From Noviherbaspirillum pedocola (GTDB lineage: Bacteria; Pseudomonadota; Gammaproteobacteria; Burkholderiales; Burkholderiaceae_D), in contig NZ_JAEPBG010000002.1 in the NCBI RefSeq assembly GCF_016632335.1, positions 310,001 through 374,000 on the forward strand: a DNA stretch of 64,000 nucleotides, given 5' to 3'. The notes beneath the pieces were generated by a model. It did not search any database and was not told the origin of the DNA. It saw nothing but the letters and a program-made list of their open reading frames with translations. This document shows, piece after piece, positions 13,221-61,316 of the stretch (position 1 is the stretch's first letter; each line of letters starts with the position of its first letter). A program made the translations under genes and the position numbers.

Positions 13221-13238
13221 CATGGGAATGCCAACAAC

Positions 13239-14840: not shown

Positions 14841-14907
14841 GCGCCGTGCTCCGGATGTGTGGCAGGAAAGCCGAGGCGGGCGCAGCCCGATGACACCGAG
14901 ATAGCGC

Positions 14908-15166: not shown

Positions 15167-15190
15167 GCAAATGCGTGCCGCAAATGACAA

Positions 15191-15217
15191 GGGGCGGGAA
15201 TTTCGCATTCCCGCCCC
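15191..15217 (-). terminator. Hairpin terminator of the ugd-epimerase-synthase operon
   Basis: An 11-bp perfect stem (GGGGCGGGAAT / ATTCCCGCCCC) with a 5-base loop lies 43 bases downstream of the minus-strand gene ending at 15260. The downstream minus-strand bases TTGTCATTT are only moderately T-rich, so termination may be partial. Confidence 0.6.
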
Positions 15218-15259
15218 CGGCTTCATAGGCTATCGCATGTTGCAGCCCGATGACATTGA

Positions 15260-16300: not shown

Positions 16301-16304
16301 GTGA

Positions 16305-17297: not shown

Positions 17298-17310
17298 GCC
17301 GGTACCCCGC

Positions 17311-26680: not shown

Positions 26681-27228
26681 ATTGCTCCTAAATAAAAAAT
26701 TTTTTCGAACATAACATATATATAAATCAACATTTTCTTAAATTCAAATTACTAGGATCGTTCGCCGCGTTAGTGGAAGCAACACCATATCGGTTCGGAT
26801 TCATTACTTTCACCTTTGTTGGAGCGTCGCAGCTATCAACAGACAATTTCGAATGGCTCCCTTGGTAGATCCCTAATGCGTGCGTGCTACTGCCTACGAT
26901 TGGTGCCTGGGTCGTTGCCCTCACGATTTCTTGCCGGGCCTGCTCCTATGTCGCTTAACGCCAGTGCTGCATTAACCTGTTCTTCAGCATCCGCAATAAA
27001 GCCTTGATCGGAGTGGTATCGTAACGATTCCTACGCCAGTTTTCCGGGGTGCGCATGTCAAATTTCATTAACAGTGTCTGATGCTTATGAACTATTTTGC
27101 TGGAGCGAGCAAGATACTGGATCACCCGTAATACGGGGCGGCGAAGTGAGGCCGCTCGAAAGGTCGCCCGCTCGATTGGTTAAATCAGCCAGAACGTCAT
27201 ATGGAGTTTTATTAGCACCATTTGATAA
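26681..27228. other. 548-base gap with possible decayed coding sequence on the minus strand
   Basis: No intact gene. On the minus strand a frame is open from 27179 to a TAA at 26955-26957 (about 74 codons, containing TPENWRRNRYDTTPIKALL), but no start with a ribosome site is visible. Two other minus frames continue as protein-like stretches down to 26727, as if frameshifts had broken one gene. I do not recognise the product. No inverted repeats were seen. Confidence 0.3.
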
Positions 27229-28215: not shown

Positions 28216-28323
28216 TCTCACTCCCTTTGGAGAATCTAAAGATTATAGTTATTGAACTTGTGAGTTATTGGATCTTGATGCGCTTGACCTCCGGCATATA
28301 GCTAGAAGGAAAAACGCCATCTG

Positions 28324-29508: not shown

Positions 29509-29665
29509 TTTTCTTTCTTATTTGTATTTTCTCGAATAGATGGCAGCTGCTATTGTTTGAGCAGCGAGTCTTACTAAATTCTTGTGCGAGTTGTCGAAGC
29601 TAAAAGTTAATCTGTTTCAAGGTCATGATGTGCTCGTTGCTGTAACGGGTTCATGGTTTCGACGA

Positions 29666-30757: not shown

Positions 30758-31089
30758 GCGTTTTCCCTTCGTTTTTAAGGCTCCATGTTACATTAAGGAA
30801 CTATTCTGAAGGAAAATTTTTGAGTCTAGAGTGAATTTTTGCGTATAACAACGCGGAAGAGATGTTTGTGGTGGAAGAGGGAGCGGTGGTTTTGCTTAGC
30901 GCTGGGAGTATCTTAAGCGGGAATAGTATTTTGTGATTTGCAAGGTAGGAGCATAACCCGTTCTTGCAAATGTATTCTTTCGATGAAAGGCCACGGCGGC
31001 AGAATAATTTCCACCAACAGCGTCGTGCTTGCAAACGCTGTTCAAGTTGCTAGTAATCGCTTCTTATGCAGAAAATTGCTTCCACAGGT
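30758..31089. other. 332-base gap, nothing recognised
   Basis: The gap between two minus-strand genes has stops in all frames at short spacing apart from a 77-codon frame without homology that I know. It should carry the promoter of the acyltransferase gene at 29666-30757. I see no repeats. Confidence 0.4.
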
Positions 31090-48322: not shown

Positions 48323-48571
48323 ATGGCATCCATCGCAGAAGTACGAAACATCGTGACCGACATCCTGGGCTTGGGCGAACGCGGCGCCGCGCTGCAGCCG
48401 GAGAGCCCGCTGCTGGGAGCGATTCCCGAACTGGATTCCATGGCCGTTATCGGATTGATCACTGCGCTGGAAGAGCATTTCGGCATCGCCGTCAATGACG
48501 ATGAAATCAGCGCCGAAGTCTTCGAAACCCTCGGCAGCCTCGCCGCTTTCGTCGACAGCAAGCTGGCCTGA
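48323..48571 (+). CDS. Acyl carrier protein, exosortase A-associated
   Basis: An 82-residue carrier protein of the phosphopantetheine-binding class. Ser39 in PELDSMAVI is the attachment site; the remaining helices fit a four-helix ACP. It is not the fatty-acid ACP, whose gene sits with fabD and fabG. It overlaps the start of hydrolase 2 by one base (TGATG), and is thus the first gene of a three-gene operon with the two hydrolases. It likely carries an acyl or aminoacyl group loaded by the AMP-forming ligase at 56977; the group is unknown. Confidence 0.92.
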   Translation: MASIAEVRNIVTDILGLGERGAALQPESPLLGAIPELDSMAVIGLITALEEHFGIAVNDDEISAEVFETLGSLAAFVDSKLA

Positions 48572-49404
48572 TGTCGGGCGCGCCCAGTCATCCTCCGGCG
48601 CATCCCTTCTTCCTGGACGCGCAGCCGGGCCGGCGCTTTTGCCTGTACCACCGTCCGCATGGCATGGCGCGGGGTGCCGTGCTGCTGGCGCCGGCTTTTG
48701 CCGAGGAAATGAACCGGGCGCGACGCATGTGCGCGCTGCAGGCACGCCTGCTCGCCGAGCACGGCTACGGCGTGCTGCTGATCGATACCTACGGCTGCGG
48801 CGACAGCGACGGCGAATTCGGCGATGCGCGCTGGGAAATCTGGAAAAGCGATATGCGGATCGCGCTGGGTTGGATGCGTAGCGAATGCCCGGGCCCGGTC
48901 TGGCTATGGGGATTGCGGCTCGGCGCGCTGCTGGCGCTGGAGGCGACGCGCGATGCCGGTGAACTCGCCGGCCTGCTGTGGTGGCAGCCGGTGACCGATG
49001 GATCTTCCTATCTGACGCAATTTCTGCGCTTGCGCCTGGCCGCGGACATGCTGGCCGGCGGCACTAGCGAGGGCGGCACCGATCGCCTGCGCCGTGAGCT
49101 GGAGGCCGGGAATGCGCTGGAGATTGCCGGATACCAACTGGCGCCGGAACTGGCGCTGGCCATCGATGCCCTGCGTCTGACGCAGGCGCCTTCCTGCCCG
49201 GTGCACTGGCTCGAAGTGCTGTCGCAGGCGGGGCGCGATTTGCCGCCGGGGCGTGCACGCCTGGTGCAGCATTGCGCACAGGCCGGCTGGGACTTGCGCA
49301 AGCATGTCGTCGAAGGGCCGTCGTTCTGGGCCACACAGGAAATCGAGGAGGCGCCGGCGCTGTTGCGGGCGACGCTGGCCGCGCTGCAATCGGAGGCGTC
49401 GTGA
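48571..49404 (+). CDS. Exosortase A-associated hydrolase 2 (alpha/beta fold)
   Basis: A 277-residue alpha/beta-hydrolase-like protein with LLAPAFAEEMNRARRM (oxyanion-side loop) near residues 38-54 and LLIDTYGCGDSDG near 68-81. At the nucleophile elbow the sequence is LWGLRLGALLAL, with Arg116 where a Ser would be expected in GxSxG. So it may be catalytically unusual or inactive. This is how family 2 members commonly look, as far as I recall. It overlaps both neighbours (TGATG, GTGA). Confidence 0.88.
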   Translation: MSGAPSHPPAHPFFLDAQPGRRFCLYHRPHGMARGAVLLAPAFAEEMNRARRMCALQARLLAEHGYGVLLIDTYGCGDSDGEFGDARWEIWKSDMRIALGWMRSECPGPVWLWGLRLGALLALEATRDAGELAGLLWWQPVTDGSSYLTQFLRLRLAADMLAGGTSEGGTDRLRRELEAGNALEIAGYQLAPELALAIDALRLTQAPSCPVHWLEVLSQAGRDLPPGRARLVQHCAQAGWDLRKHVVEGPSFWATQEIEEAPALLRATLAALQSEAS

Positions 49405-50276
49405 CCGACCGCGCCATTGCTTTCGCCTGCGAGGATTGCTGGTTGTATGGCGTGCTGTCGGTGCCGGAGCAGCCGGCGCGGCGCGGCGTGCTTCTGGTGG
49501 TCGGCGGGCCGCAGTATCGGGTTGGCAGCCATCGGCAGTTCGCCTTGCTGGCGCGGCGTCTGGCCGATGCCGGTGTCGCGGTGATGCGCTTCGACTATCG
49601 CGGCATGGGCGACAGCGAAGGCGAACGGCGCGATTTCAGCACCGTCGACGCCGATCTGCGCGCCGCAGTCGATGCCTTCACCGCACAAGTTCCCGAGGTG
49701 AGGGAAGTGGTGTTGTGGGGACTGTGCGATGCCGCGTCGGCCGCGCTGTTCTACGCGCATCAGGATCGCCGGGTGACCGGCCTGGCGCTGGCCAATCCCT
49801 GGGCACGCACCGAGGAGGGGGCGGCGCGCGCGACGCTGAAGCACTATTACCTGTCGCGCCTGGTGCAGCCGGGTCTGTGGCGCAAGATTGCGAGCGGACG
49901 CTTTGATTACGGTGGCGCGCTGCGTTCCTTTGTCGACCTCTGTTCCGCGGCAGGCGGCAAGTCGCGGCAGGGAGCGGCTGCCGAGTCGCAGGCCCATTCG
50001 CCAGCCGGACCGAAAGCCGCGTCCACGCCAGCCTTGCCCGAGCGCATGCTGCAGGGATTTACCCGTTTTCCCGGCGAGACGCTATTCATCATCAGCGGCG
50101 CCGACCTCACCGCCCGCGAATTCGAGGACATGGCGGCGGCGCCCGCATGGCGTCGCGCGATGCGCGATGGGCGCGTCACCCGTCGTGTGCTGGCCGGCGC
50201 GGACCATACTTTCTCCCGGGCTGCATGGCGCGAGCAGGTGGCGCAATGGACGCTGGAGTGGCTGCGCAGCTGGTAG
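49401..50276 (+). CDS. Exosortase A-associated hydrolase 1 (alpha/beta fold)
   Basis: A 291-residue alpha/beta hydrolase with the loop LLVVGGPQYRVGSHRQF and the RFDYRGMGDSEG turn. The nucleophile elbow reads LWGLCDAASAAL with Cys109 in place of Ser, and a plausible catalytic His lies near the end in AGADHTFSR. A Cys nucleophile is found in dienelactone-hydrolase-like and some thioesterase-like enzymes, which would suit release of a thioester from the ACP. It starts at GTG 49401, overlapping hydrolase 2. The middle has a low-complexity Ala/Gly insert (~residues 195-215). Confidence 0.88.
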   Translation: MTDRAIAFACEDCWLYGVLSVPEQPARRGVLLVVGGPQYRVGSHRQFALLARRLADAGVAVMRFDYRGMGDSEGERRDFSTVDADLRAAVDAFTAQVPEVREVVLWGLCDAASAALFYAHQDRRVTGLALANPWARTEEGAARATLKHYYLSRLVQPGLWRKIASGRFDYGGALRSFVDLCSAAGGKSRQGAAAESQAHSPAGPKAASTPALPERMLQGFTRFPGETLFIISGADLTAREFEDMAAAPAWRRAMRDGRVTRRVLAGADHTFSRAAWREQVAQWTLEWLRSW

Positions 50277-50340
50277 GGGGAATTGGCGATGCTCCGGGCG
50301 AGCTTTCCACCGCCGCGCAGATTGCATATCGGGACGATGC

Positions 50341-50441
50341 GTAGGGTGGGTGTAGCCCACGCGTTTCATCGAACATGTGGATAGGTCATATCTGCGCGTC
50401 TGGTGGATCAGAGAGGCGCGTGGGCTGGCGCCCACCCCACG
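50341..50441. repeat. Inverted REP pair, family B (diverged)
   Basis: GTAGGGTGGGTGTAGCCCACGCG at 50341-50363 faces CGCGTGGGCTGGCGCCCACCCCAC at 50418-50441. Together they resemble the 10304-10364 pair, with a longer spacer. They separate convergent genes. Confidence 0.75.
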
Positions 50442-50456
50442 ACGCGAAAAAACTTT

Positions 50457-51605
50457 TCAACCGCCTCGCAAGCGGCGCAGCCAGCGCTTGAATTTCCCGC
50501 CTCCGATATTGAGCGCCGCCAGTGCCATGCCGCGCGCTGAGCGCAGATTGTAGGCAACCAGTCCCCAACGCTCGCGCGAGTGCGACATCCAGTCGCGCTT
50601 GTAGGCATCGTCGCCGGTCAGATAATCCACTTCCCGCACCCGATCCAAATCGATCGCATGCTCCATCATGCGCGCGGTGAGCAATGAGCCGATCGACAGG
50701 GCGGCGTAGCGTTCGTCATAGGCCAGCTTGTAGATCGATGCCACGCCATCGCACACGATCCACAACTGCGCCGCCGCCGGTTCGCCGTCGACATGGGCAA
50801 GTCCGAGGCGCAGCCAGCCCTCGCGCGCGCAAAGGCGGATCAGCGCGGGCATGAATGCCGGCGTCGGTTCCGGCGATTTCCAGCTGTTGCGATAAATCGC
50901 TTCATACGCGGCGATGCCGGCTTCCAGGTCGAGGTCGTCAGCACCGGTGACGATGCGAAAACTGGCGCGGCCTGAACGCGCCAGGCTCTTTTCCTTGCGC
51001 TTCAAGGTATTGCGCAGCGACGAAGGCAGGCTGGCTGCATATTCCGCGTAGCTGCGACCGTCGACCTGCAGATACCAGTTGATGAAGCAGAAATAGCGCT
51101 GCACAGCCATCCCGGCCACGCGCAGCGCTTCTTCCAGGGCGGCGAACGATGGCGAATCGACATCCATCGGGCGCAGGTCGATCTGGTCCCAGCCTTCGGC
51201 AACGATGCGCTGCAACATGCGCGGCAGCAGAAGCGAAACCTGTGCATCGGCGCTCAGCAGCGGCGCATAAAACGAGCTGTACCAGTTCGTCAGTGCGGAA
51301 AGTGTGCGCACACCAAAGCGGCCGGAGAACCCCAGCAGTGGCAGCAACAGTCGCGGCTCGTCCTCCGCAGTGCCCAGGGTGTACAGGCGCATGTCGTCGC
51401 CAGCCAGACCGCCATGCGCAGCAAGATTGGCCAGCCAGGGCAGGCTCACGAAGAAGCCTTCACGCAGCGCAGCCTCCCGAAACAAGGACTGGACCGCTGG
51501 TGGCAAGCTCGCCAAGTCCTGGTAGACCGCGAATTCTTGCGCAGCGGCGTCAGCCGGCGTAATGAAGCGACGTTCGCCGCCGCTCAAGCTGGGAGAGGCG
51601 CTCAT
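50457..51605 (-). CDS. GNAT/FemAB-like acyltransferase (CelD-type) beside the XrtA genes
   Basis: A 382-residue protein of the BioF2/CelD-like acetyltransferase fold: a first half with LLLPLLGFSGRFG and a WYSSFYAPLL strand, and a second half with YRNSWKSPEPTP, GLAHVDGEPAAAQLWIVCDG and KLAYDERYAALSIGSLL, the acyl-CoA-binding region. It ends with LTGDDAYKRDWMSHSRERWGLVAYN, typical of polysaccharide-locus members. It may acylate or aminoacylate an exported glycan. In some XrtA loci a FemAB-type gene occurs, but this one does not match its N-terminus. It is divergent from the glycosyltransferase operon. Confidence 0.8.
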   Translation of the reverse strand: MSASPSLSGGERRFITPADAAAQEFAVYQDLASLPPAVQSLFREAALREGFFVSLPWLANLAAHGGLAGDDMRLYTLGTAEDEPRLLLPLLGFSGRFGVRTLSALTNWYSSFYAPLLSADAQVSLLLPRMLQRIVAEGWDQIDLRPMDVDSPSFAALEEALRVAGMAVQRYFCFINWYLQVDGRSYAEYAASLPSSLRNTLKRKEKSLARSGRASFRIVTGADDLDLEAGIAAYEAIYRNSWKSPEPTPAFMPALIRLCAREGWLRLGLAHVDGEPAAAQLWIVCDGVASIYKLAYDERYAALSIGSLLTARMMEHAIDLDRVREVDYLTGDDAYKRDWMSHSRERWGLVAYNLRSARGMALAALNIGGGKFKRWLRRLRGG

Positions 51606-51844
51606 GCTTGGAAATTGCTATTGCAGAAAATCAATGGTTGGTCCTTTCAGTTTCATAATCGACCATATCACCGATATCATGTGCACTGATTTCGAAAATA
51701 TTGCAATTTTACTATTCAAGTTGAGCTGCAGAAATCCAAGTGGCCAGCCTCTTGAGCTAAGTCGAACCCGGGGCGCGGACCGGTGGAATTCGGGAACTTG
51801 CAGGAATGTCATATCGCCGCGACAGGAGAGGTGCAATGACAGAA

Positions 51845-51858
51845 AAGAAACGTTTCTT
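51845..51858. promoter_or_regulatory. 14-base perfect palindrome, possible operator
   Basis: AAGAAACGTTTCTT lies in the shared control region between the GNAT-like gene and the glycosyltransferase operon. Its regulator is not identifiable. Confidence 0.35.
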
Positions 51859-51991
51859 GGTAACACTGCACGTTTCATTGATGCGACAATCGCACATGTC
51901 ATTGTATTTACGACAAGAACACTCCGCACTGCAGCATTATCATTCATGAACAAGCGATCCATTTTTTTGAGATGCCGCATCAATAAATTTC

Positions 51992-52020
51992 TTTACAGTA
52001 ATATTGTTACTAGATAATAT
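51992..52020 (+). promoter_or_regulatory. Sigma-70 promoter for the XrtA glycosyltransferase-prsK-prsR operon
   Basis: TTTACA (51992-51997) and TAATAT (52015-52020) are separated by exactly 17 bases, a close match to the consensus. A transcript would start near 52027, leaving an ~80-base leader before the GTG at 52108. Good spacing in an AT-rich stretch makes chance less likely. Confidence 0.65.
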
Positions 52021-52107
52021 TTTCCTGAGGGAAATTTTCAATGGATCAGTATCCGGCATGCGGGGATGTTTCCTCGGCGAGACCGGATTGAGTCGGAGTA
52101 AGAAGAC

Positions 52108-53502
52108 GTGTTAAAGATTTCCAATCATTACGTATCGAAGATCGCTTCGGCGCTATTGCTGCTCGAAATCGGCATCCTGATCGCATCCGCTTATCTCGCT
52201 GCGGCGATCCGCTTGCCGGGTGCCGGTTTTCTGCGCGCCGAAGACCAGCAGTTTTTCCCTTCGGCGATCGCCTTTGCGCTGTCGATGGTATTTGCGATGA
52301 CGGCGCTGGGCATGTATCAGCACGATTTCCGCGAAGGCTTCCGCAATACGTTGCTGCGCCTGATGCCGTCCTTCCTGCTGGGTTTCGCGATCACGGCACT
52401 GGTGTTCTACATGATGCCGAGCTTCTACTTCGGCCGCGGCGTGCTGCTGATGATGATTGCCATTGCCGCCTGCGGCATCCTGGCGGTGCGGGTACTGCTG
52501 TTCAAATCCTCCGAGTCGCGCCTGCTGGAGTCGCGCATCCTGTTTCTCGGTTCGGGCACGCTTGCCAAGGAATGCGCGGATCTTGCCGCCAACAACAACG
52601 GCTATCACAAATATGACGTCGTCGGCTTCGTGCCGATGCCGGATGAAACGCCCGCGGTGGCATCGGGCGCCGTGCTGCCGGTAGGCAAGTCGCTGGTGTC
52701 GATTGCGCGCGAGCGCGGCGCGCAGGAGATCGTGGTCGCTGTGCAGAATCGCCGCGGTGGCGCTTTTCCGATTCGCGAACTGCTCGACTGCAAGCTCAAC
52801 GGCATCAAGGTCATCGATTCCGCCACCTTCTTCGAGCGCGAAGCCTGCCAGATCCGCGTCGATTCGCTGCAGCCGAGCTGGTTCGTCTTCGGCACGGGTT
52901 TCGACCAGGGTTTCCTGCGCAGCCTGGTCAAGCGCGCCTTCGACCTGTTCGCCAGCATGCTGATCTTCATCGGCACGCTGCCGGTGACCGCGATCACCGC
53001 GCTGTTGATTTATCTCGAAGACGGTGCGCCGATTTTTTACCGCCAGGAACGGGTGGGGGAAGATGGCTACACGTTCATGGTTCTGAAATTCCGCAGCATG
53101 CGCAAGGACGCGGAAAAAGATGGCGCGCCGAAATGGGCGTCCACCGGCGACCCGCGCACCACGCGCGTGGGCCGGGTGATCCGCAAGCTGCGCATCGACG
53201 AGATTCCACAGATCCTGAACGTATTGAAGGGCGAGATGAGCTTTGTCGGCCCGCGCCCGGAACGTCCGTTCTTCGTCGAGCAGCTATGCGAACAGGTGCC
53301 TTACTACAACATGCGCCACAGCATCAAGCCGGGCATCACCGGCCTGGCGCAGGTGCGCTATCAGTACGGCGCCTCGGTCGAAGACGCGGTGCAGAAGCTG
53401 CAGTACGACCTGTACTACGTGAAGAACAACAGCCTGTTCCTGGATCTGCTGATCCTGCTGGACACGCTGCAGGTGGTCTTGCTTTCCAAGGGCAGCCGGT
53501 GA
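52108..53502 (+). CDS. XrtA/PEP-CTERM system polyprenyl-phosphate glycosylphosphotransferase (EpsB-like)
   Basis: A 464-residue membrane enzyme that starts EPS repeat-unit assembly by transferring a sugar-1-phosphate to undecaprenyl phosphate. The N-terminal half has four membrane helices and a Rossmann-like domain (LFLGSGTLAKECADLAANNN, ~residues 148-167). The C-terminal half is the bacterial sugar transferase domain, beginning SLVKRAFDLFASMLIFIGTLPV (~274), with KFRSMRKDAEKDG, RKLRIDEIPQILNVLKGEMS and GPRPERPFF. The start is a GTG at 52108 with GGAG upstream. A 19-base gap separates it from prsK, so they form one operon. Confidence 0.95.
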   Translation: MLKISNHYVSKIASALLLLEIGILIASAYLAAAIRLPGAGFLRAEDQQFFPSAIAFALSMVFAMTALGMYQHDFREGFRNTLLRLMPSFLLGFAITALVFYMMPSFYFGRGVLLMMIAIAACGILAVRVLLFKSSESRLLESRILFLGSGTLAKECADLAANNNGYHKYDVVGFVPMPDETPAVASGAVLPVGKSLVSIARERGAQEIVVAVQNRRGGAFPIRELLDCKLNGIKVIDSATFFEREACQIRVDSLQPSWFVFGTGFDQGFLRSLVKRAFDLFASMLIFIGTLPVTAITALLIYLEDGAPIFYRQERVGEDGYTFMVLKFRSMRKDAEKDGAPKWASTGDPRTTRVGRVIRKLRIDEIPQILNVLKGEMSFVGPRPERPFFVEQLCEQVPYYNMRHSIKPGITGLAQVRYQYGASVEDAVQKLQYDLYYVKNNSLFLDLLILLDTLQVVLLSKGSR

Positions 53503-53521
53503 GCGCGGCTGGCGCTCTGCC

Positions 53522-55615
53522 ATGGTGATCAATGTCGTCGCCACCAGTTATGGCATTGCCGCCGCCGCCTTCCTGCTGCTGACGGCGCTCCTTTTTACGA
53601 GCTGGCGCGGCCGGCTGCATGGCAAGGCGCTGGCGATCGCCAGTGGTCTCACCGCCGCCTGGGCCGCGGTAGTGGCGCAGCAGGCGGCCAACGGCATACA
53701 ACTGTCGCTCTTGTCCGATGTGCTGGAAGTGCTGCGCATTGCCGCCTGGACTGCCTTCCTGATGACGGTGCTGTCGCCATTTCGCCGCGATGACGGCGCT
53801 CCGGTGCTGCGCGTCTGGATGCGTCCGCCGCTGGTTACCGCGCTGTACCTGGTTTGCCTGAGCGGCGGCTTGTATGCGCGCTGGGTGCTGCGCGATGCCA
53901 CCGATACCAGCTACTTCCTGTTCAACTATGTCGGCCGGGTCTGCTTCGCCGTCATCGGCATGCTGCTGGTCGAGCAGTTGTACCGCAGCACGCCGCCCGA
54001 GGAACGCTGGGCGGTGAAGTTCGCCTGCTTTGGCATCGGCGGCCTGTTCGTCTACGAGTTCTACCTGTACAGCGACGCCATGCTGTTCCATGCCCTGAAC
54101 GCGGAAATCTGGGCCGCGCGCGGCCTGGTCAATGCGCTTGCGGTGCCGCTGATCGCGGTGTCGGCGGCGCGCAATCCGCGCTGGTCGATGGAAATCTCGG
54201 TGTCGCGCCGGGTGGTGTTCCACTCGGTCACGGTGTTTGGCTCGGCGCTGTACCTGTTGCTCATGGCGGCCGCCGGCTACTGGCTGCGCTTCTTCGGCGG
54301 CAGCTGGGGCTCGGTGATGCAGGTGGTGTTCCTGTCCGGCGCGCTGCTGCTGCTGGCCGGCATCCTGTTCTCGGGCACGATGCGCTCGAAGCTGCGGGTG
54401 ATGATCAGCAAGAACTTCTACAGCTACAACTACGATTACCGCGAGGAATGGCTGCGCTTCACCCGCACGCTGTCGGAGCAGGGCCCGGGCTTGGGCGAGC
54501 GCGCGGTGCAGGCGATCGCCAACCTGGTGGAAAGCCCGACCGGCGCGCTGTGGCTGCGCGAGGGATCGAACTACATCGTCGCCGCGCGCTGGCATCAGCC
54601 GGACGCGGCCGGCGTCGAGCCGGCCGGCAGCGCGTTCTGCCGCTTTCTCGAGGAGCGCGAATGGGTGGTGGACCTGGACGAGCTGCGCGCGAACCCGCAA
54701 AAGTACGATGGTCTCGAAGTGCCGGCGTGGCTGAGCGGCCTGTCCCGCGCCTGGCTGGTGGTGCCGCTGATCATGCATGGCAGTTTGCTTGGCTTCATGG
54801 TAGTGTCCCAGCCGCGCAGCCGGATCCGGCTGAACTGGGAGGTCACGGATCTGCTGAAGATCGCCGGCAACCAGGCGGCCAGCTATCTGGCGCAGCAGCA
54901 GGCGGACAAAGCGCTGATGGTGGCGCGGCAGTTCGAATCGGTGAACCGCATGTCCACCTTCATCGTGCATGACCTGAAGAACCTGATTTTCCAGTTGTCG
55001 CTGCTGGTGACGAATGCCGACAAGCATCGCAACAACCCGGAATTCCAGAAGGACATGCTGGAAACCCTGGACCACTCGGTGCGCAAGATGAAGCTGTTGC
55101 TGCACAAGCTCAACAGCGGCGATTCGCTCGAAGGCGTTGCGCCGCTGATGCTGGACAAGCTGCTCGAGCAGGCCGTGGCCCTGAAACGCGGCTTCGAGCC
55201 GCAACCGACGCTGGAGCTCGTCGACAGGAATCTGTCGCTGATGGCAAACTGGGGCCGCCTAGAACGGGTGCTCGGCCACCTGATCCAGAATGCGATCGAC
55301 GCCACCGGCCGCGAAGGCCGGGTCACGATCCGGCTCAATCGCCGCGGCGACAATGCCGTCATCGAAGTCATCGATACCGGCGCCGGCATGAGCGCGGAAT
55401 TCATCCGCGACCGCCTGTTCAAGCCCTTCGAGACGACCAAGTCGGCCGGCATGGGCATCGGCGTGTTTGAAAGCAGGGAGTATGTGCAGGAACTGGGCGG
55501 CAGCATGGAGGTACAGAGCCGCCCGGGCGAAGGAAGCACCTTCACCATCACGTTGCCGCTCGCCGGGGAAAGGGCGGCGCGACTTCAGGACGAACATCAA
55601 GAGGAATCGGCGTGA
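53522..55615 (+). CDS. prsK: XrtA/PEP-CTERM system sensor histidine kinase PrsK
   Basis: A 697-residue membrane sensor. About nine helices in the first ~290 residues are followed by a GAF-like domain (~320-450) and a HisKA-like region where His483 in FIVHDLKNLIFQLSLL is the phosphorylation site. The GHKL ATPase has HLIQNAIDATGREG, IDTGAGMSAEF and a STFTITLPL end. It phosphorylates PrsR. Its stop overlaps the prsR start as GTGA, confirming the pair. ATG 53522 is 19 bases after the glycosyltransferase. Confidence 0.96.
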   Translation: MVINVVATSYGIAAAAFLLLTALLFTSWRGRLHGKALAIASGLTAAWAAVVAQQAANGIQLSLLSDVLEVLRIAAWTAFLMTVLSPFRRDDGAPVLRVWMRPPLVTALYLVCLSGGLYARWVLRDATDTSYFLFNYVGRVCFAVIGMLLVEQLYRSTPPEERWAVKFACFGIGGLFVYEFYLYSDAMLFHALNAEIWAARGLVNALAVPLIAVSAARNPRWSMEISVSRRVVFHSVTVFGSALYLLLMAAAGYWLRFFGGSWGSVMQVVFLSGALLLLAGILFSGTMRSKLRVMISKNFYSYNYDYREEWLRFTRTLSEQGPGLGERAVQAIANLVESPTGALWLREGSNYIVAARWHQPDAAGVEPAGSAFCRFLEEREWVVDLDELRANPQKYDGLEVPAWLSGLSRAWLVVPLIMHGSLLGFMVVSQPRSRIRLNWEVTDLLKIAGNQAASYLAQQQADKALMVARQFESVNRMSTFIVHDLKNLIFQLSLLVTNADKHRNNPEFQKDMLETLDHSVRKMKLLLHKLNSGDSLEGVAPLMLDKLLEQAVALKRGFEPQPTLELVDRNLSLMANWGRLERVLGHLIQNAIDATGREGRVTIRLNRRGDNAVIEVIDTGAGMSAEFIRDRLFKPFETTKSAGMGIGVFESREYVQELGGSMEVQSRPGEGSTFTITLPLAGERAARLQDEHQEESA

Positions 55616-56964
55616 GCCAGTCAAAAAGCCATTTGCTCATCATTGAAGACGATCCGGGCCTGCAGAAGCAGTTGAAATGGAGCCTGGATGAATACGACGT
55701 CCTGACCGCGGGCGACCGCGAAGCAGCGCTGGCAATGGTGCGCCGGCATGAGCCGCCGGTCATCACCATGGACCTGGGCCTGCCGCCCGATCCGGACGGC
55801 GCTTCCGAAGGCTTCGCCACGCTGCAGGCGATCCTGTCGCTGACGCCCGATGCGAAGGTCATCGTTTTGACCGGCAACCAGGACCGCGCCAATGCCGTCA
55901 AGGCCATCGGCCTGGGCGCCTACGATTTCCATCACAAGCCTTTCGATCCCGAGATGCTCGGGCTGGTCATCAAGCGCGCGTTCTATCTGCATGCCTTGCA
56001 GAAGGAGAACCGCAAGATGATGCAGACCGGCGCCGATTCGCCGCTGGCCGGCGTGATCAGCCGCGATCCGGGCATGCAGAAGCTGTGCCGCAGCATCGAG
56101 AAAGTGGCGCCGACCTCGGCCAGCGTGATGCTGCTCGGCGAATCCGGCACCGGCAAGGAAGTGCTGGCGCGCGCGCTGCACCAGATGTCGCCGCGCGCGG
56201 AAAAGCGCTTCGTCGCCATCAACTGCGCCGCCATTCCCGAGAACCTGCTGGAGAGCGAACTCTTCGGCTACGAGAAGGGCGCCTTCACCGGCGCGGCCAA
56301 GACCACGCTGGGCAAGATCGAAACCGCCAACGGCGGCACCTTCTTCCTCGATGAAGTCGGCGACCTGCCGATGGCGCTGCAGGCCAAGCTGCTGCGCTTT
56401 TTGCAGGAGCGGGTGATCGAGCGCGTCGGCGGCCGTGAAGAAATTGCGGTGGATGTGCGCATCGTCTGCGCCACGCACCAGAACCTGAAGGAGCTGGCCA
56501 CGGCCGGCCGCTTCCGCGAAGACCTGTATTACCGGCTGTCCGAGATCGTCATCAACATTCCGCCGCTGCGCAACCGCATCGGCGACGCGGCGCTGTTGGC
56601 TCACCATTTCAAGAACAAGTTCTGTGCCCAGGAAAACCGCAGCTCGCTGCATTTCTCCGAGGATGCCATCAAGCTGATCGAGTCCTACCCGTGGCCTGGC
56701 AATGTGCGCGAGATGGAGAACTGCATCAAGCGCGCCATCATCATGGCCGACGGTCCGCAAATCGTCGGTGAGGACCTCGGCATCGGCGATTCGCCGGCCA
56801 CCGACGAATTCATGAACCTGCGCCAGGTCCGCGACGAAGCCGAGTACAAGGCCATCGTCAAGGCGCTGGCGCGGGTCGACGGCAACATCGTGCGCGCCGC
56901 GGAACTGCTCGGCGTGTCGCGTCCGACGCTGTATGACCTGATGAGCCGGCATGGCATCAAGTAG
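55612..56964 (+). CDS. prsR: PEP-CTERM-box sigma-54 response regulator PrsR
   Basis: A 450-residue NtrC-family activator. The receiver domain holds Asp54 (VITMDLGLP); the AAA+ domain has Walker A GESGTGKE at 176-183, GAFTGA at 223-228 (the sigma-54 contact loop), and a later VDVRIVCATH and FREDLYYRLSE. A Fis-type helix-turn-helix closes it (RAAELLGVSRPTLYDLMSRHGIK). When phosphorylated by PrsK it should drive sigma-54 promoters of PEP-CTERM genes. A good candidate target lies at 61546-61561. It starts with GTG and is followed 12 bases later by the ligase gene. Confidence 0.96.
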   Translation: MSQSKSHLLIIEDDPGLQKQLKWSLDEYDVLTAGDREAALAMVRRHEPPVITMDLGLPPDPDGASEGFATLQAILSLTPDAKVIVLTGNQDRANAVKAIGLGAYDFHHKPFDPEMLGLVIKRAFYLHALQKENRKMMQTGADSPLAGVISRDPGMQKLCRSIEKVAPTSASVMLLGESGTGKEVLARALHQMSPRAEKRFVAINCAAIPENLLESELFGYEKGAFTGAAKTTLGKIETANGGTFFLDEVGDLPMALQAKLLRFLQERVIERVGGREEIAVDVRIVCATHQNLKELATAGRFREDLYYRLSEIVINIPPLRNRIGDAALLAHHFKNKFCAQENRSSLHFSEDAIKLIESYPWPGNVREMENCIKRAIIMADGPQIVGEDLGIGDSPATDEFMNLRQVRDEAEYKAIVKALARVDGNIVRAAELLGVSRPTLYDLMSRHGIK

Positions 56965-56976
56965 GCGGATGGTTGC

Positions 56977-58578
56977 ATGAGTTTGCGCATCAGCGATTTC
57001 ATCCAGGTCTCGGCGCTGCGTTCTCCGCAGTCCGAGGCACTGGTGCATGGCGAGCGCAGGCTGTCGTATGCAGAGCTGGCGCGCGAAACCGATGCCTGGG
57101 CTGATGCATTGCTCGCATTGGGCGTCGAAGCCGGCGAGCGCGTGGCGGTGTATCTCGACAAGCGCATCGAAACCGTGGCTGCGATCTTCGGCGCCTGCGC
57201 GGCCGGCGCGGCGTTCGTGCCCGTCAACCCGCTGCTGAAGGCTGACGGCGTTGGCTACATCCTCGCCGACTGCAATGTGCGCGTGCTGGTGACCTCGAGC
57301 GAGCGTCTCGCGCTGCTGGCGCCGGCCCTGCGGAGTTGTCCCGATCTGCGCTGCGTGATCGTGGTTGGCGATACCGGCGCATTCGACTTGCCGGGACTGC
57401 GCATCATCGATGCCGCCCGGCTGCCGCAAACCTGCCCGCCGCAAGGCGTGCATCGCCGCATCGACAGCGATGTCGCGGCAATCCTGTACACCTCAGGCAG
57501 CACCGGCCGGCCGAAGGGCGTGGTGCTGTCGCACCGCAATCTCGTGGCCGGCGCGCAGAGCGTGGCGTCCTATCTGCACAATCGCGCGGATGATCGCATC
57601 CTGTCGGTGCTGCCGCTGTCCTTCGACTATGGCCTGTCGCAATTGACTACCGCCTTCCTGTCTGGCGCGACCGCAGTGCTGATGAATTACCTGATGCCGC
57701 GCGACATCGTGCGCATGGTCGCGCGCGAACGCATCACCGGGCTGGCCGCGGTGCCGCCGCTATGGATACAGCTGTCGCAGCTGACCTGGCCGGATGCCGC
57801 CACGCTGCGCTACCTGACCAATTCCGGCGGCGCGATGCCGCGCGCGGTAGTCACGCGCCTTGCCGAGCTGCTGCCGCAGGCCGAGATATACCTGATGTAC
57901 GGCCTGACCGAAGCCTTCCGCTCTACCTATCTGCCGCCTTCGGAAGTGCGGCGCCGGCCGGATTCGATCGGCCGAGCGATACCGAATGCCGACGTGCTGG
58001 TGGTGCGTGGGGACGGCACGCCGTGCGCGCCCGATGAGCCCGGCGAACTGGTGCATCGCGGCGCGCTGGTCGCGCTCGGCTACTGGAACGACCCGGTCAA
58101 GACCGCCGAACGCTTCCGTCCCGCGCCGGCGCGCGATGGCGCGCTGCCGCTGCCGGAAATTGCGGTATGGTCCGGCGACACGGTGCGCATGGATGCCGAA
58201 GGCTATCTGTACTACATCGGTCGCAGCGACGACATGATCAAGGTCTCGGGCTACCGCGTCAGCCCGACCGAGATCGAGGAAGTCATTCATGACGCCGGCG
58301 GCGTGCTCGAAGTCGCGGCGGTTGGCCTGCCGCATCCGGTGCTCGGGCAGAGCATCGCGGTAGCCGCGGTGCCCATGGTGCCGAACGAAGGACAAGGCAA
58401 GCCGGCAGGCCAGGCCGAGATCATCGACGCCTGCCGCCGTGCCTTGCCGGCCTACATGGTGCCTTCGCATGTCGAGCTGCGCGAAGAAGCTCTGCCGCGC
58501 AATCCGAATGGCAAGATAGACCGCAAGCTGCTGCAGCAGGAGCTGGCACAGCGTTATACGAACGTGACTGCACCATGA
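56977..58578 (+). CDS. Exosortase A-associated AMP-forming acyl-CoA/ACP ligase
   Basis: A 533-residue adenylate-forming enzyme. The P-loop-like motif ILYTSGSTGRPKGVV is at 170-183, YLMYGLTEAFRST near 306-317, and the hinge YYIGRSDDMIKVSGYRVSPTEIEE with the catalytic PNGKIDRKLL Lys near the C-terminus. It would activate a carboxylic or amino acid as an adenylate and load it on CoA or the ACP encoded at 48323. Its stop overlaps the decarboxylase start (ATGA). In XrtA genomes these two genes recur with the ACP and hydrolases; the natural substrate is unknown. Confidence 0.93.
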   Translation: MSLRISDFIQVSALRSPQSEALVHGERRLSYAELARETDAWADALLALGVEAGERVAVYLDKRIETVAAIFGACAAGAAFVPVNPLLKADGVGYILADCNVRVLVTSSERLALLAPALRSCPDLRCVIVVGDTGAFDLPGLRIIDAARLPQTCPPQGVHRRIDSDVAAILYTSGSTGRPKGVVLSHRNLVAGAQSVASYLHNRADDRILSVLPLSFDYGLSQLTTAFLSGATAVLMNYLMPRDIVRMVARERITGLAAVPPLWIQLSQLTWPDAATLRYLTNSGGAMPRAVVTRLAELLPQAEIYLMYGLTEAFRSTYLPPSEVRRRPDSIGRAIPNADVLVVRGDGTPCAPDEPGELVHRGALVALGYWNDPVKTAERFRPAPARDGALPLPEIAVWSGDTVRMDAEGYLYYIGRSDDMIKVSGYRVSPTEIEEVIHDAGGVLEVAAVGLPHPVLGQSIAVAAVPMVPNEGQGKPAGQAEIIDACRRALPAYMVPSHVELREEALPRNPNGKIDRKLLQQELAQRYTNVTAP

Positions 58579-59822
58579 ATTCCAATCGTCCCGTGCATAC
58601 GCCGCAACGGCATTTCCAGGCCGTCGATGGCTGCCTGATGGTCGGCGGCATGCCGCTGACCCGGCTGGCCGAACGCGTCGGCAGCACACCTTTCTTCGCT
58701 TATGACCGCAGCGTGATCAAGAAGCGCGTGGCCGAACTGCGCGCCGCGCTGCCGGCCGCCATCGAACTGCATTTCTCGGTCAAGGCCAATCCGATGCCAG
58801 CGGTGGTGCAGCTGATGTCGGGCCTGGTCGACGGCTTCGATGTCGCTTCGGCCAGCGAATTGCGCGTGGCGCTCGATACGACGATGCCAGCCGGCGAGAT
58901 CAGCTTTGCCGGCCCGGGCAAGCTTGATGCCGAGCTGGCGCAGGCCATTGCCGCCGGCGTGGTGCTGTCGCTGGAGTCGCCGAATGAAGCGCGGCGCGCC
59001 GCGGCGATCGGCGATCGTCTGGGGCTTACGCCGCGGGTGCTGTTGCGGGTGAATCCGGACTTCGAGATGAAGTCCTCCGGCATGAAGATGGGCGGCGGCG
59101 CCAAGCAGTTCGGCGTCGATGCCGAGGCCGCGCCGCAGCTGCTGCGCGAGATCGGCGCAATGGGGCTGGACTTCCACGGCCTGCAGATTTTCAGCGGCTC
59201 GCAAAGTCTGTCGGCCGAGACCATCGTCGATGCGCAGCGCAACACCTTCGAACTGGCGCAGCGGCTGGCCGAGCATGCGCCGGCGCCGATTGCGCTTTTG
59301 AACATCGGCGGCGGCTTCGGCATACCGTATTTCCCCGGCGAGGCGCCGCTGGACCTGGCGCCGGTGTCCGAGCAGCTCGCCGCGATGCTGCCGCGGATAT
59401 CGGATGCGCTGCCCGGCACGCGCGTGGCCATCGAACTCGGTCGCTACCTGGTCGGCGAAGCCGGCATCTATGTCACCCGCATCACCGACCGCAAGGTCTC
59501 GCGCGGCCAGGTGTTCCTGGTCACCGATGGCGGCATGAACCATCATCTCGCCGCCTCGGGCAATCTGGGGCAGGTGATACGCAAGAATTATCCGGTGGCC
59601 ATCGGCAACCGCATGGCGGTCGATGGAGAAGGCGCGGCGCTGGAGACGGTCAGCGTGGTCGGGCCGCTGTGCACGCCGCTCGATACACTGGCCGACCGCA
59701 TGCCTTTGCCGCATGCCGATGTCGGCGACCTGGTGGTGGTATTCCAGTCCGGCGCCTACGGGCCGAGCGCAAGCCCGGCGAATTTTCTGAGCCGCCAACC
59801 GGCGGCTGAGGTACTGGTCTGA
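58575..59822 (+). CDS. Exosortase A-associated PLP-dependent decarboxylase
   Basis: A 415-residue fold III decarboxylase of the diaminopimelate/ornithine/arginine group. Lys70 in HFSVKANP is the PLP Schiff-base residue, SGFDVASASEL-like (DGFDVASASELR) follows near 94, and NIGGGFGIPYF near 242 binds the cofactor phosphate. IELGRYLVGEAG near 290 is present. It decarboxylates an amino acid to an amine, possibly the one activated by the co-encoded ligase. It overlaps the ligase by 4 bases. A separate diaminopimelate decarboxylase gene (lysA) should exist elsewhere, so this one is likely dedicated. Confidence 0.93.
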   Translation: MNSNRPVHTPQRHFQAVDGCLMVGGMPLTRLAERVGSTPFFAYDRSVIKKRVAELRAALPAAIELHFSVKANPMPAVVQLMSGLVDGFDVASASELRVALDTTMPAGEISFAGPGKLDAELAQAIAAGVVLSLESPNEARRAAAIGDRLGLTPRVLLRVNPDFEMKSSGMKMGGGAKQFGVDAEAAPQLLREIGAMGLDFHGLQIFSGSQSLSAETIVDAQRNTFELAQRLAEHAPAPIALLNIGGGFGIPYFPGEAPLDLAPVSEQLAAMLPRISDALPGTRVAIELGRYLVGEAGIYVTRITDRKVSRGQVFLVTDGGMNHHLAASGNLGQVIRKNYPVAIGNRMAVDGEGAALETVSVVGPLCTPLDTLADRMPLPHADVGDLVVVFQSGAYGPSASPANFLSRQPAAEVLV

Positions 59823-59885: not shown

Positions 59886-61316
59886 ATGGCCAACATTTAT
59901 CCCATCATTCTGTCCGGCGGCTACGGCACCCGGCTCTGGCCGCTGTCCCGCGCGGCCCTGCCCAAGCAATTGCTGCCGCTGGTCACCGAGAAGACCATGC
60001 TGCAGGAAACCGCGCTGCGCGTGGCCGAGTGGCCGGAGATGCAGCCGCCGGTCCTGGTCTGCGGCGATGAGCACCGATTCCTGGTGGCGGAGCAGCTGCG
60101 CCAGATCGGCATCAAGCCAACCGCGATCCTGCTCGAGCCCGAAGGCCGCAACACCGCGCCGGCCGTTGCCGTCGCAGCGAATTTCCTGATGGCGCGCGAT
60201 CCCGAGGCGCTGATGCTGGTGCTGCCGGCCGACCACATGATCGAGGATGTGGCCGCCTTCCATGCCGCTGTCGGCAAGGCTGCCGAAGTCGCGCTCAAGA
60301 GCGGCGCGCTGGTGACCTTCGGCATCGAACCGACCGCCGCCGAGACTGGCTATGGCTACATCCGCCGCGGTGCCGCTCTACAGGGTTTCGACGGCTGCTA
60401 TGCGGTCGAGCGCTTCGTCGAGAAGCCGGACGCCGCCACCGCGCAATCCTTCATCGAAGATGGCGGCTACAGCTGGAACAGCGGCATGTTCCTGTTCGAA
60501 GCGGGCCGCTACCTCGAAGAACTCAAGCGCCTGGCGCCGGCGATCGCGGAGCATGCGGCCAGCGCGATCGAGGGACGCCACGGCGACCTCGATTTCTGCC
60601 GCCTGGAGGAAGCCGCCTTCGCAAGCTGCCCGTCCGACTCGATCGACTACGCGGTCATGGAACGCACCGATCGCGCCGTCGTCGTGCCGGCCGCGCTCGG
60701 CTGGAGCGATGTCGGTTCCTGGTCCGCGTTGTGGGAAGTGCAGAAGGGCGACGAGAACGGCAATGTGCTGCGCGGCGACGTCTATGTCGATGGCGCGCGC
60801 GATTCGCTGGTGCGCGCGGAAAGCCGCATGGTGGCGCTCATCGGCGTGGACAACCTGGTGGTCATCGAGACCGACGACGCCGTACTGGTGGCGCACAAGG
60901 ACCAGGTGCAGCAGGTGAAGAAGGTGGTGGAGCATCTGAAGCAGAAAGGGCGCAGCGAGCACCTGAACCATACCCGCGTCTACCGGCCCTGGGGCTATTA
61001 CGAAGGCATCGACGCGGGCAGCCGCTTCCAGGTCAAGCGCATCATGGTCAAGCCGGGTGAAAAGCTGTCGCTGCAGATGCATCATCACCGCGCCGAACAT
61101 TGGGTCGTGGTCCGTGGCACCGCGCGCATCACCTGCGGCGAGACGGTGAAGCTGCTCTCGGAAAACGAGTCCACCTACATCCCGATTGGCGTGACGCATC
61201 GCCTGGAAAATCCGGGCAAGATGCCGCTCGATATCATCGAAGTACAGTCCGGCAGCTACCTCGGCGAAGATGACATCGTGCGTTTCGAGGATGTCTATCA
61301 GCGTGTCCCGCAGTAG
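59886..61316 (+). CDS. manC: Mannose-1-phosphate guanylyltransferase / mannose-6-phosphate isomerase
   Basis: A 476-residue bifunctional enzyme. The nucleotidyltransferase domain starts IILSGGYGTRLWPLSRAALPKQLLPL, with VEKPD, GYSWNSGMFLF and GWSDVGSW. From about residue 325 a cupin-type phosphomannose isomerase domain follows, with RPWGYYEGIDAG, VKPGEKLSLQMHHHRAEHWVVV and the metal His residues. It makes GDP-mannose for the EPS. A good AGAGAGGAAAAAGC ribosome site lies before ATG 59886. It is 63 bases after the decarboxylase, probably the last gene of the operon; a hairpin lies at 61429. Confidence 0.94.
   Translation: MANIYPIILSGGYGTRLWPLSRAALPKQLLPLVTEKTMLQETALRVAEWPEMQPPVLVCGDEHRFLVAEQLRQIGIKPTAILLEPEGRNTAPAVAVAANFLMARDPEALMLVLPADHMIEDVAAFHAAVGKAAEVALKSGALVTFGIEPTAAETGYGYIRRGAALQGFDGCYAVERFVEKPDAATAQSFIEDGGYSWNSGMFLFEAGRYLEELKRLAPAIAEHAASAIEGRHGDLDFCRLEEAAFASCPSDSIDYAVMERTDRAVVVPAALGWSDVGSWSALWEVQKGDENGNVLRGDVYVDGARDSLVRAESRMVALIGVDNLVVIETDDAVLVAHKDQVQQVKKVVEHLKQKGRSEHLNHTRVYRPWGYYEGIDAGSRFQVKRIMVKPGEKLSLQMHHHRAEHWVVVRGTARITCGETVKLLSENESTYIPIGVTHRLENPGKMPLDIIEVQSGSYLGEDDIVRFEDVYQRVPQ

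Follow-up and report, generated by a model that had tools for sequence, protein, structure and literature searches.

A predicted carrier-bound beta-amino acid module in an exosortase A locus of Noviherbaspirillum pedocola

We analyzed a 64,000-nucleotide stretch of the Noviherbaspirillum pedocola genome (RefSeq assembly GCF_016632335.1, contig NZ_JAEPBG010000002.1, positions 310,001 to 374,000; hereafter the window) that holds an exosortase A (XrtA) and exopolysaccharide (EPS) locus. Five of its genes encode a stand-alone acyl carrier protein (ACP), an AMP ligase, a fold III decarboxylase dependent on pyridoxal phosphate (PLP), and two alpha/beta-hydrolase relatives. Judging from sequence, these genes probably form a module of the VinN/VinL/VinO (AfcQ/AfcK) type that builds a beta-amino acid on its carrier, a judgment that covers loading and decarboxylation jointly. 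The predicted product is beta-alanyl-S-ACP. The chemistry is known, and the setting of such a module in an XrtA/EPS locus is new.

Results

All five genes are present in the window as open reading frames on the forward strand. The ACP (48323 to 48571; 82 amino acids) matches Pfam PP-binding at 34.2 bits (cut-off, 20.8) and carries its phosphopantetheine serine, Ser39 as counted on the translation, within the motif PELDSMAV; its top match in the Protein Data Bank (PDB), 2lki_A, scores 92 bits and the runner-up 25.7. Next come hydrolase 2 (48571 to 49404; TIGR03101, 306 bits, cut-off 203), an alpha/beta-hydrolase relative, and hydrolase 1 (49401 to 50276; TIGR03100, 339 bits, cut-off 168), an alpha/beta hydrolase for which we chose a GTG start, the TIGR03100 scan having used a longer open reading frame from 49272. 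Farther along are the ligase (56977 to 58578; TIGR03098, 768 bits, cut-off 592) and the decarboxylase (58575 to 59822; TIGR03099, 606 bits, cut-off 478). The initial annotation had described an ACP with Ser39, two overlapping hydrolases, and a ligase overlapping a decarboxylase around prsK-prsR, and every one of these elements was confirmed in place. Because the ACP and hydrolase 2 overlap by 1 bp, hydrolase 2 and hydrolase 1 (with its GTG start) by 4 bp, and the ligase and decarboxylase by 4 bp, the genes point to two translationally coupled blocks. Four of the five qualify by cut-off for the curated families TIGR03098, TIGR03099, TIGR03100, and TIGR03101, which are named "exosortase A system-associated." Those names convey association only, and the core of ACP, ligase, and decarboxylase also occurs in genomes without a detected exosortase.

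The ligase is predicted to be an aminoacyl-ACP ligase of the VinN/AfcQ type that activates the side-chain carboxyl of L-aspartate, and it does not look like a fatty-acyl ligase. When the segment containing its pocket (57520 to 58230) was compared with the PDB, the top match was VinN (3wvn, 112 bits; next other protein, 90 bits). Asp217, Ser283, and Arg315 of the window ligase align with Asp230, Ser299, and Arg331 of VinN, for which a role in the pocket has been proposed (PMC7756342); the numbering of the VinN PDB chain is shifted by 16, and the spacings of 69 and 101 fit. The pocket has the features of the VinN/AfcQ type, with an aspartate for the alpha-amino group and a serine or threonine together with an arginine for the alpha-carboxyl of an aspartate-type substrate. 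Among 87 non-identical relatives from fetched loci of Proteobacteria, Rubrobacter, Chloroflexota, Myxococcota, and others, the aspartate is present in 86 and the arginine in all 87, and the middle position is always serine (39) or threonine (48). For this and the other residue counts, only matches above limits that we set (320 bits for the ligase, 230 for the decarboxylase, and 150 for the hydrolases) were used; identical sequences were counted once, and a gene fetched twice with different ends may be counted twice. As a control, we aligned 29 other AMP-ligase matches from the host genome, one of which is a fragment. None of the 28 readable sequences has the triad, and two have the aspartate.

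An enzyme of this kind has been assayed in the AFC-BC11 pathway of the Burkholderia cepacia complex. According to a 2025 report (PMC12186527), the VinN-type ligase AfcQ activates L-aspartate and not beta-alanine in vitro and loads it on the carrier AfcK (Ser40), and semipure AfcP converts AfcK-bound aspartate to beta-alanine in vitro. The same report describes AfcQ as able to iterate, yielding oligo-beta-alanine, and proposes from a model that AfcQ Arg311, the equivalent of VinN Arg331, orients the substrate towards Lys503. A search of plasmid records with the window ligase led to records of 1.1 to 1.3 Mb from Burkholderia arboris (L227) and Burkholderia cenocepacia (L226). In both, a decarboxylase and a KAS III-related gene precede the ligase, and a 600-amino-acid fatty acyl-AMP-ligase-like gene and an ACP with Ser40 (assumed start) lie nearby. 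The Arg-Lys spacing of the B. arboris ligase is 192, equal to that of Arg311 and Lys503 in AfcQ, and we take this ligase as the AfcQ ortholog on the strength of the spacing and the neighbors, rather than of the AfcQ sequence itself. It has a D/T/R pocket, shares 50.2% identity with the window ligase across 522 residues, and is placed within a 14-member proteobacterial ligase clade that includes the window ligase (SH-aLRT, 100), in a tree that comes from a short search and has long branches. Since it also scores 630.7 bits on TIGR03098 (cut-off, 592.35), the family of "exosortase A system-associated" ligases would, by way of this inferred ortholog, be the family of an enzyme with a tested reaction. 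The AfcQ-like ligase of the B. cenocepacia record (NZ_CP091014, 15989 to 17577) is split across two open reading frames, whereas in B. arboris it is a single frame.

AFC-BC11 resembles the window in its ligase family, D/T/R pocket, stand-alone ACP, and adjacent PLP decarboxylase. It differs in that AfcP is a distant relative of the window decarboxylase, release is of the KAS III type, and the product is a lipopeptide. Relatives of hydrolases 1 and 2 were not found in the fetched AFC-BC11-like stretches with profiles that we built. The initial suggestion that the ligase charges the ACP with an amino acid is supported, and the prediction now names L-aspartate.

The decarboxylase is predicted to be of the BtrK type and to act on an ACP-bound amino acid. 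BtrK, an L-glutamyl-[BtrI acyl-carrier protein] decarboxylase, is its top PDB match (244 bits), while the best diaminopimelate (DAP) decarboxylase reaches 143 bits. Where the DAP decarboxylases listed have a CE[ST]xD loop, the window enzyme has CTPLD and BtrK has CTPED, and 91 of 92 relatives share the threonine of this CTPxD loop. In a tree of 31 sequences, six DAP decarboxylases stand on a separate branch (100/100), with BtrK and TIGR03099 on the other side. We rejected a lysA-type identity on the score (TIGR01048, 226 bits, below the cut-off of 298), on the loop, and on the presence of a separate lysA in the genome (L002; TIGR01048, 491 bits). The window enzyme is a fold III protein that lies nearer to BtrK than to DAP decarboxylases and has no CExxD loop. 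This agrees with the earlier idea that the decarboxylase provides or modifies an amine, and the prediction now reads L-aspartate in and beta-alanyl-ACP out.

In one report, BtrK, SbnH, AcsE, MccE, and FigC are placed in a clade with DAP decarboxylases and D-ODC and are described as unrelated to polyamine synthesis (PMC7857480). The butirosin proteins BtrI, BtrJ, and BtrK resemble the window in that BtrK is the nearest solved decarboxylase (PDB 2j66 and 7ru7) and an amino acid is decarboxylated on a small carrier (PMC7857480). Butirosin differs from the window in its substrate, glutamate, and in its aminoglycoside product. BtrJ is a different kind of ligase. A Paenibacillus locus (L053, 9953 to 12686) has a decarboxylase that groups with BtrK (100/99) and an 83-amino-acid ACP-like open reading frame nearby, and it is perhaps a butirosin-like pathway.

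To describe the distribution of the module, we used an order sample of 160 genomes and a class sample in which 303 of 330 genomes were searched. XrtA was counted only above 208 bits; 13 further order genomes have weaker exosortase matches. In the order sample, 43 genomes have XrtA, and the decarboxylase, the ligase, and the ACP are each present in 32; the counts for the hydrolases are 24 genomes for hydrolase 1 and 26 for hydrolase 2. The co-occurrence check proposed with the initial annotation returned all five genes together with XrtA in 21 of the 160 genomes; XrtA without any of the five was found in 14, and another 5 have the three core genes but neither XrtA nor the hydrolases. This tally omits an ACP-like match in G141 (33 bits) and a hydrolase 2-like match in G142 (93 bits, below cut-off), and its ligase set includes G151 (427 bits), four genomes from a single genus at 488 to 559 bits, and a fragment in G052. 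The class decarboxylase set omits G423 (338 bits) and keeps three below-cut-off matches (430 to 456 bits).

The core genes travel together. In 30 of the 34 order genomes with at least one of the two, ligase and decarboxylase are both present, the same holds for decarboxylase and ACP, and outside the Proteobacteria the three form a contiguous trio, so that the decarboxylase is regularly encoded with a carrier and a ligase. Partial sets occur in nine order genomes; with XrtA present, hydrolase 1 is missing in G140 and G159, both hydrolases are missing in G111, and G082 has the ligase and decarboxylase only. Some of the gaps may be contig ends or ligases missed at first look, as the ligase search scored eight candidates per genome where more existed (ligases may be missed in G103 and G128, for example).

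XrtA and the decarboxylase are associated in both samples. The order sample has both in 27 genomes, XrtA only in 16, and the decarboxylase only in 5 (P = 9.8e-15), and the class sample has both in 21, XrtA only in 33, and the decarboxylase only in 13 (P = 8.1e-10), with kinship among genomes inflating the significance in each case. Yet 14 of the 43 order genomes with XrtA lack all five genes. The core also occurs where no exosortase was found, and we rejected the idea that the module is restricted to genomes with XrtA. The hydrolases supplement the core and are mostly found with XrtA. Above cut-off they occur only with XrtA and the ACP in the 160 order genomes, and hydrolase 1, found in 23 class genomes, is accompanied by the decarboxylase in all 23 and by XrtA in 20. 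The initial annotation had named independence of the genes both from XrtA and from each other as a refutation, and half of this holds: the core is indeed independent of XrtA, but its members are hardly independent of each other.

The window's split of the set by other genes, which the initial annotation had pointed out, is real, but it looks like a local rearrangement and not two modules, because no more than 10 kb separates the ACP from the ligase in 22 order genomes (17 divergent) among the 30 that have both. They share one contig in 27 genomes and lie within 1 kb in 10.

Several lineages carry the core outside XrtA loci. In Rubrobacteraceae, Chloroflexota, Rokuibacteriota, and Myxococcota, the gene order is ACP-ligase-decarboxylase, usually with a GNAT-type gene directly upstream, at a gap of -4 to 61 bases from the ACP in the 13 loci where gene calls set the two side by side. 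The exosortase/archaeosortase signature TIGR04178 had no match in 23 of 32 genomes, several of which are partial metagenome-assembled genomes and a few of which hold only a related decarboxylase. Hydrolases 1 and 2 were not found in the flanks of core loci outside the Proteobacteria. Within that phylum, 27 Sinorhizobium plasmid records (including Rm41 and SM11 and not 1021) share one 4-kb stretch that, in Sinorhizobium meliloti pSymB (L222), holds a GNAT-like open reading frame, ligase, decarboxylase, and ACP beside glycosyltransferases, a polysaccharide deacetylase, and an O-antigen ligase family gene. The cluster on Aureimonas pAU20a is similar (GNAT-like, ligase, decarboxylase, and ACP) and adds Wzz-domain and O-antigen translocase genes. 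Profiles built from fetched relatives found no relative of hydrolase 1 or 2 in either the L222 or the Aureimonas stretch. A specific tie of the core to XrtA, as first supposed, is accordingly unsupported, given its presence in these EPS clusters and in genomes where no exosortase was found.

Other relatives occupy different surroundings. On pSymB of S. meliloti 1021 (L228, positions 1443598 to 1461130), the segment from 5743 to 9548 holds an asparagine-synthase-like gene, an ACP, and a VinN-like ligase that scores 457.6 bits on TIGR03098, below cut-off, and has the motifs FDYG/NTAA/TECKR; no decarboxylase was found nearby. A second asparagine-synthase-like amidotransferase, related to TIGR03108 and below cut-off in the one case scanned, occurs in 19 of 35 compared stretches (L158 to L188), often next to or near the decarboxylase. 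A B. cenocepacia locus (L225) pairs a ligase of 700 bits with a decarboxylase of 559 bits, both above cut-off, and an ACP; the stretch from about 12707 to 23962 also holds KAS III-like genes, two acyl-CoA dehydrogenases, and a LuxR-type regulator and is reminiscent of dehydro-beta-alanine pathways. Four Photorhabdus loci (L016, L017, L018, and L020) place the decarboxylase (TIGR03099, 637 bits in L016) in a natural-product-like operon with genes that we named by eye: two KAS III-related genes, a stand-alone adenylation domain, an alpha/beta hydrolase, and an RND-pump-like protein. This operon adjoins apparent type I-E CRISPR-cas genes, and no XrtA-locus query protein matched nearby.

One genome (G029) has an XrtA-type copy of the module and a second locus (L190, contig C23, 3821 to 11192) with, in order on one strand, genes for a GNAT-like protein, ACP, ligase, methylaspartate mutase S (157.5 bits, cut-off 110), mutase E (405.6 bits, cut-off 390.1), a GlmL-like protein (below cut-off), and a decarboxylase. 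The pocket motifs of its ligase are FDYG/TTGG/TEAFR. The vicenistatin cluster likewise pairs a glutamate mutase with VinN/VinL/VinO (PMC11284099). The simplest reading of this comparison is that the ligase family handles aspartate-type acids, 3-methylaspartate where a mutase is present and aspartate elsewhere, and the product of L190 may be based on 3-aminoisobutyrate. Vicenistatin (VinN/VinL/VinO and VinH/VinI) matches the module in the order of events, the pocket triad, and decarboxylation on the ACP, with the mutase recurring beside the related L190; it differs from the window in making a polyketide starter unit with VinM/VinK, in preferring 3-methylaspartate to aspartate, and in belonging to an actinomycete antibiotic cluster (PMC11284099).

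Neither "hydrolase" has the serine of a GxSxG-type alpha/beta hydrolase. Hydrolase 1 has a cysteine at its nucleophile elbow (Cys109), which aligns with the serine of the alpha/beta hydrolase PDB 9pjb and is cysteine in 35 of 35 relatives. The rest of its triad, Asp235 and His269, is equally constant where aligned (29 of 29 and 26 of 26). Hydrolase 2 has an arginine at the elbow (Arg116; 25 of 25 non-identical relatives) and a conserved F252-W253 at the expected site of the catalytic histidine (24 of 24 aligned), with a histidine one position before the conserved phenylalanine in 1 of the 24. These residues suggest that hydrolase 1 is probably an acyltransferase or thioesterase and hydrolase 2 probably a catalytically dead partner. 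For a cysteine enzyme and a dead partner encoded beside an ACP, we infer that acyl transfer or thioester control fits better than simple hydrolysis. It had been suggested that a hydrolase releases the product. That is now doubtful, given the cysteine nucleophile of hydrolase 1, the lack of one in hydrolase 2, and the failure to find either beside core loci outside the Proteobacteria or in the two alphaproteobacterial plasmid clusters. A TIGR03100 prediction, Bcam1334, is listed for an EPS cluster of B. cenocepacia (PMC3584217).

The "GNAT-like" gene of the window (50457 to 51605, reverse strand) matches Pfam Acetyltransf_6 at 116 bits, which bears out its first description. Its FemX-type product had no sequence match in the PDB and is a candidate acyl or aminoacyl transferase; relatives occur in seven further fetched loci, and in six of these a module gene lies no more than 3 kb away. 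More broadly, a GNAT-type match lies within 3 kb in 30 of 31 loci with the core and no hydrolase found, three of which supplied a query, and in 16 of 21 loci with a hydrolase; these are raw counts, and distances are between open reading frames, not genes. The neighbors comprise a FemX/Acetyltransf_6 group of 8 sequences that includes the window's, a related FemAB-like group of 13, Rubrobacter-type groups of 29 and 5, and a Sinorhizobium/Aureimonas pair. A group from seven loci (L190, Desulfobacula L019, Thioalkalivibrio L021, Duganella L006, and three order-sample loci) matched GNAT acetyltransferases in all seven of its profile matches to the PDB (E up to 1). Its structural model is of low confidence (mean pLDDT, 60; pTM, 0.56), and the Foldseek matches listed are nearly all GNAT acetyltransferases, at query TM-scores of 0.34 to 0.46. 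The Rubrobacter-type model is good (mean pLDDT, 85), and its 50 listed matches consist of two-domain GNAT acetyltransferases together with N-myristoyltransferases, enzymes in which a thioester donates the acyl group and an amine receives it. The Sinorhizobium and Aureimonas GNAT-like frames had no Pfam match and were assigned by profile similarity to the Rubrobacter-type group (probability, 81%).

The rest of the locus confirms the XrtA setting given in the initial annotation. It includes exosortase A itself (52 to 1587, forward; TIGR03109, 358 bits), the XrtA-system amidotransferase (2739 to 4661, forward; TIGR03108, 1083 bits), a putative O-glycosylation ligase (21411 to 22730, forward; TIGR03097, 481 bits), PrsT (45209 to 47986, reverse) as a marker of the setting, and a TIGR03088 glycosyltransferase. 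Between the FemX-type gene and the ligase, all on the forward strand, lie an EPS-locus sugar-phosphate transferase (52108 to 53502; Pfam Bac_transf, 218 bits) and, separating the module halves, the PrsK histidine kinase (53522 to 55615; TIGR02916, 882 bits) and the PrsR sigma-54 response regulator (55612 to 56964; TIGR02915, 749 bits). A ManC-type mannose-1-phosphate guanylyltransferase/mannose-6-phosphate isomerase follows the decarboxylase (59886 to 61316, forward; TIGR01479, 717 bits). The GC content falls to 0.44 to 0.49 at 24001 to 32000, against 0.60 to 0.65 in the remaining window, and this drop suggests foreign DNA inside the XrtA/EPS locus. The host genome measures 7.2 Mb, and the closest named matches of the window decarboxylase come from Herminiimonas, Herbaspirillum, and Undibacterium.

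Discussion

We propose that the module works in three steps. Very likely, the ligase would activate the side-chain carboxyl of L-aspartate and load the residue on the ACP. The BtrK-like PLP decarboxylase would then, as seems likely, strip the alpha-carboxyl from the ACP-bound residue to give beta-alanyl-S-ACP, with oligo-beta-alanine as a variant if the ligase iterates as AfcQ does, and a 3-aminoisobutyryl unit as another if 3-methylaspartate is supplied. Finally, a GNAT-type transferase (the FemX-type protein encoded at 50457), the cysteine enzyme hydrolase 1 with its pseudo-hydrolase partner, or both, might move or cap the beta-aminoacyl unit. The most likely acceptor would be the EPS repeat unit from the surrounding glycosyltransferase locus, at an amino sugar or a hydroxyl group, and we put forward the polysaccharide as destination tentatively, as a serious candidate.

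A number of observations weigh against this proposal. The decarboxylase occurs without the ligase in two XrtA-bearing genomes (G103, which has the decarboxylase only, and G128), the ligase without the decarboxylase in G037 (with XrtA) and G151 (ligase alone), and in G092 (with XrtA) the ACP and hydrolases occur with neither. The VinN-type ligase of S. meliloti 1021 likewise has no decarboxylase beside it, and module genes also sit in natural-product clusters (L225 and Photorhabdus). In L190, the ligase (495 bits) and decarboxylase (427 bits) both fall under the TIGR03098 and TIGR03099 cut-offs, and the decarboxylase loop reads CNPTD. The GNAT-type neighbors belong to several families that profile comparison does not unite. 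Glutamate may be an alternative substrate, BtrK being a glutamate user, and the 31-sequence tree leaves the order of BtrK and TIGR03099 unsettled and does not show them as sisters. SbnH, whose substrate is citryl-diaminopropionate and is not ACP-bound, also has CTPxD, so the loop tells against a DAP decarboxylase and not for the use of an ACP. Finally, close homology of the window decarboxylase to AfcP was not found. The AfcP ortholog is 27% identical to it and scores 89 bits on TIGR03099 (cut-off, 478), and we rejected the two as orthologs. Because AfcP is so distant, the second step rests on BtrK, on genomic context, and on L225.

The same ligase, ACP, and decarboxylase chemistry could also serve a small secreted or membrane metabolite, such as a lipopeptide, an N-acyl-beta-alanine, or a signal. 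GNAT/LuxI-type or FeeM-type acyltransferases would then N-acylate beta-alanyl-ACP, and the hydrolases would release the product. The same core serves, or has been proposed to serve, in making the lipopeptides AFC-BC11 and bolagladin. Two loci (L177 and L163) have TIGR03694 acyltransferases close to the module, and L166 has a FeeM-domain protein there. The KAS III-like genes and acyl-CoA dehydrogenases of L225, and the related KAS III-like genes of the Photorhabdus locus, are of the same tenor. We nevertheless regard a metabolite as unlikely: the neighbors in the window, S. meliloti, and Aureimonas include glycosyltransferases and polysaccharide deacetylase, O-antigen ligase-type, and Wzz/Wzx-type genes, and among the 160 order genomes the hydrolases reached their cut-offs only where XrtA was present.

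In a further alternative, which shares the first two steps, the beta-aminoacyl unit would provide, directly or as a precursor, the amine that attacks and resolves the acyl-enzyme of exosortase A, and beta-alanine would thereby link PEP-CTERM proteins to EPS or lipid. The association of XrtA with the decarboxylase in the order and class samples would fit, as would the residues of EpsH/XrtA, which are described in one report as consistent with a transpeptidase (PMC1569441). The 14 XrtA genomes without any of the five genes led us to reject it as the leading reading, and the 23 of 32 genomes, several of them partial metagenome assemblies, with the core or a related decarboxylase and no exosortase/archaeosortase match also make it improbable. 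In a specific version, to which we give an equally small chance, (oligo-)beta-alanine would be hung on the EPS repeat unit or a lipid carrier, and in XrtA bacteria its terminal primary amine would be the acceptor for exosortase A transpeptidation, giving a beta-alanine bridge between PEP-CTERM protein and EPS. If true, Gram-negative bacteria would have in this bridge an equivalent of the lipid II cross-bridge to which sortases anchor proteins, hydrolases 1 and 2 would together form a heterodimeric cysteine acyltransferase specific to it, and genomes with the core only would decorate without anchoring proteins.

It is very unlikely that the decarboxylase instead uses free DAP, lysine, or ornithine to make a diamine coupled to EPS or a PEP-CTERM protein, while an acyl group is handled independently by the ligase and ACP. 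In favor, TIGR03099 has a relationship to lysA, as the sub-threshold TIGR01048 score of the window enzyme reflects, and fold III enzymes that decarboxylate free amino acids are common. Against this stand BtrK as by far the nearest solved relative, the lost CE[ST]xD loop, the pairing of ligase with decarboxylase, the separate lysA of the genome, and the counterpart steps of AFC-BC11, which are reported to occur on the carrier. An ordinary fatty acyl-CoA ligase, in a module that would attach lipid to EPS or protein, is scarcely credible. Among the 25 listed of 108 NCBIfam matches, most are indeed acyl-CoA ligase models (179 to 320 bits) but only TIGR03098 reaches its cut-off (best acyl-CoA score, 320 bits against 476 for NF004837), and the Asp/Ser/Arg pocket, its absence from all 28 readable other AMP ligases of the genome, and the inferred AfcQ ortholog in TIGR03098 contradict such an identity, which the initial annotation had named as a possible refutation and which we rejected.

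We return to the proposed carrier-bound beta-amino acid module. In the open-licence literature, we found no paper linking exosortase loci with VinN, BtrK, or AfcQ chemistry. The proposal gives testable chemistry to the "exosortase A system-associated" ligase, decarboxylase, and hydrolases, which have so far been named without a product. It also indicates that the "exosortase-associated" label misleads for the core and that the two "hydrolases" are probably not simple hydrolases. For many environmental bacteria, S. meliloti strains like Rm41 perhaps among them, it predicts beta-alanine or 3-aminoisobutyrate chemistry in the surface polysaccharides. If correct, the proposal would take the synthesis of beta-amino acids on a carrier beyond antibiotics and into what appears to be the assembly of the cell surface.

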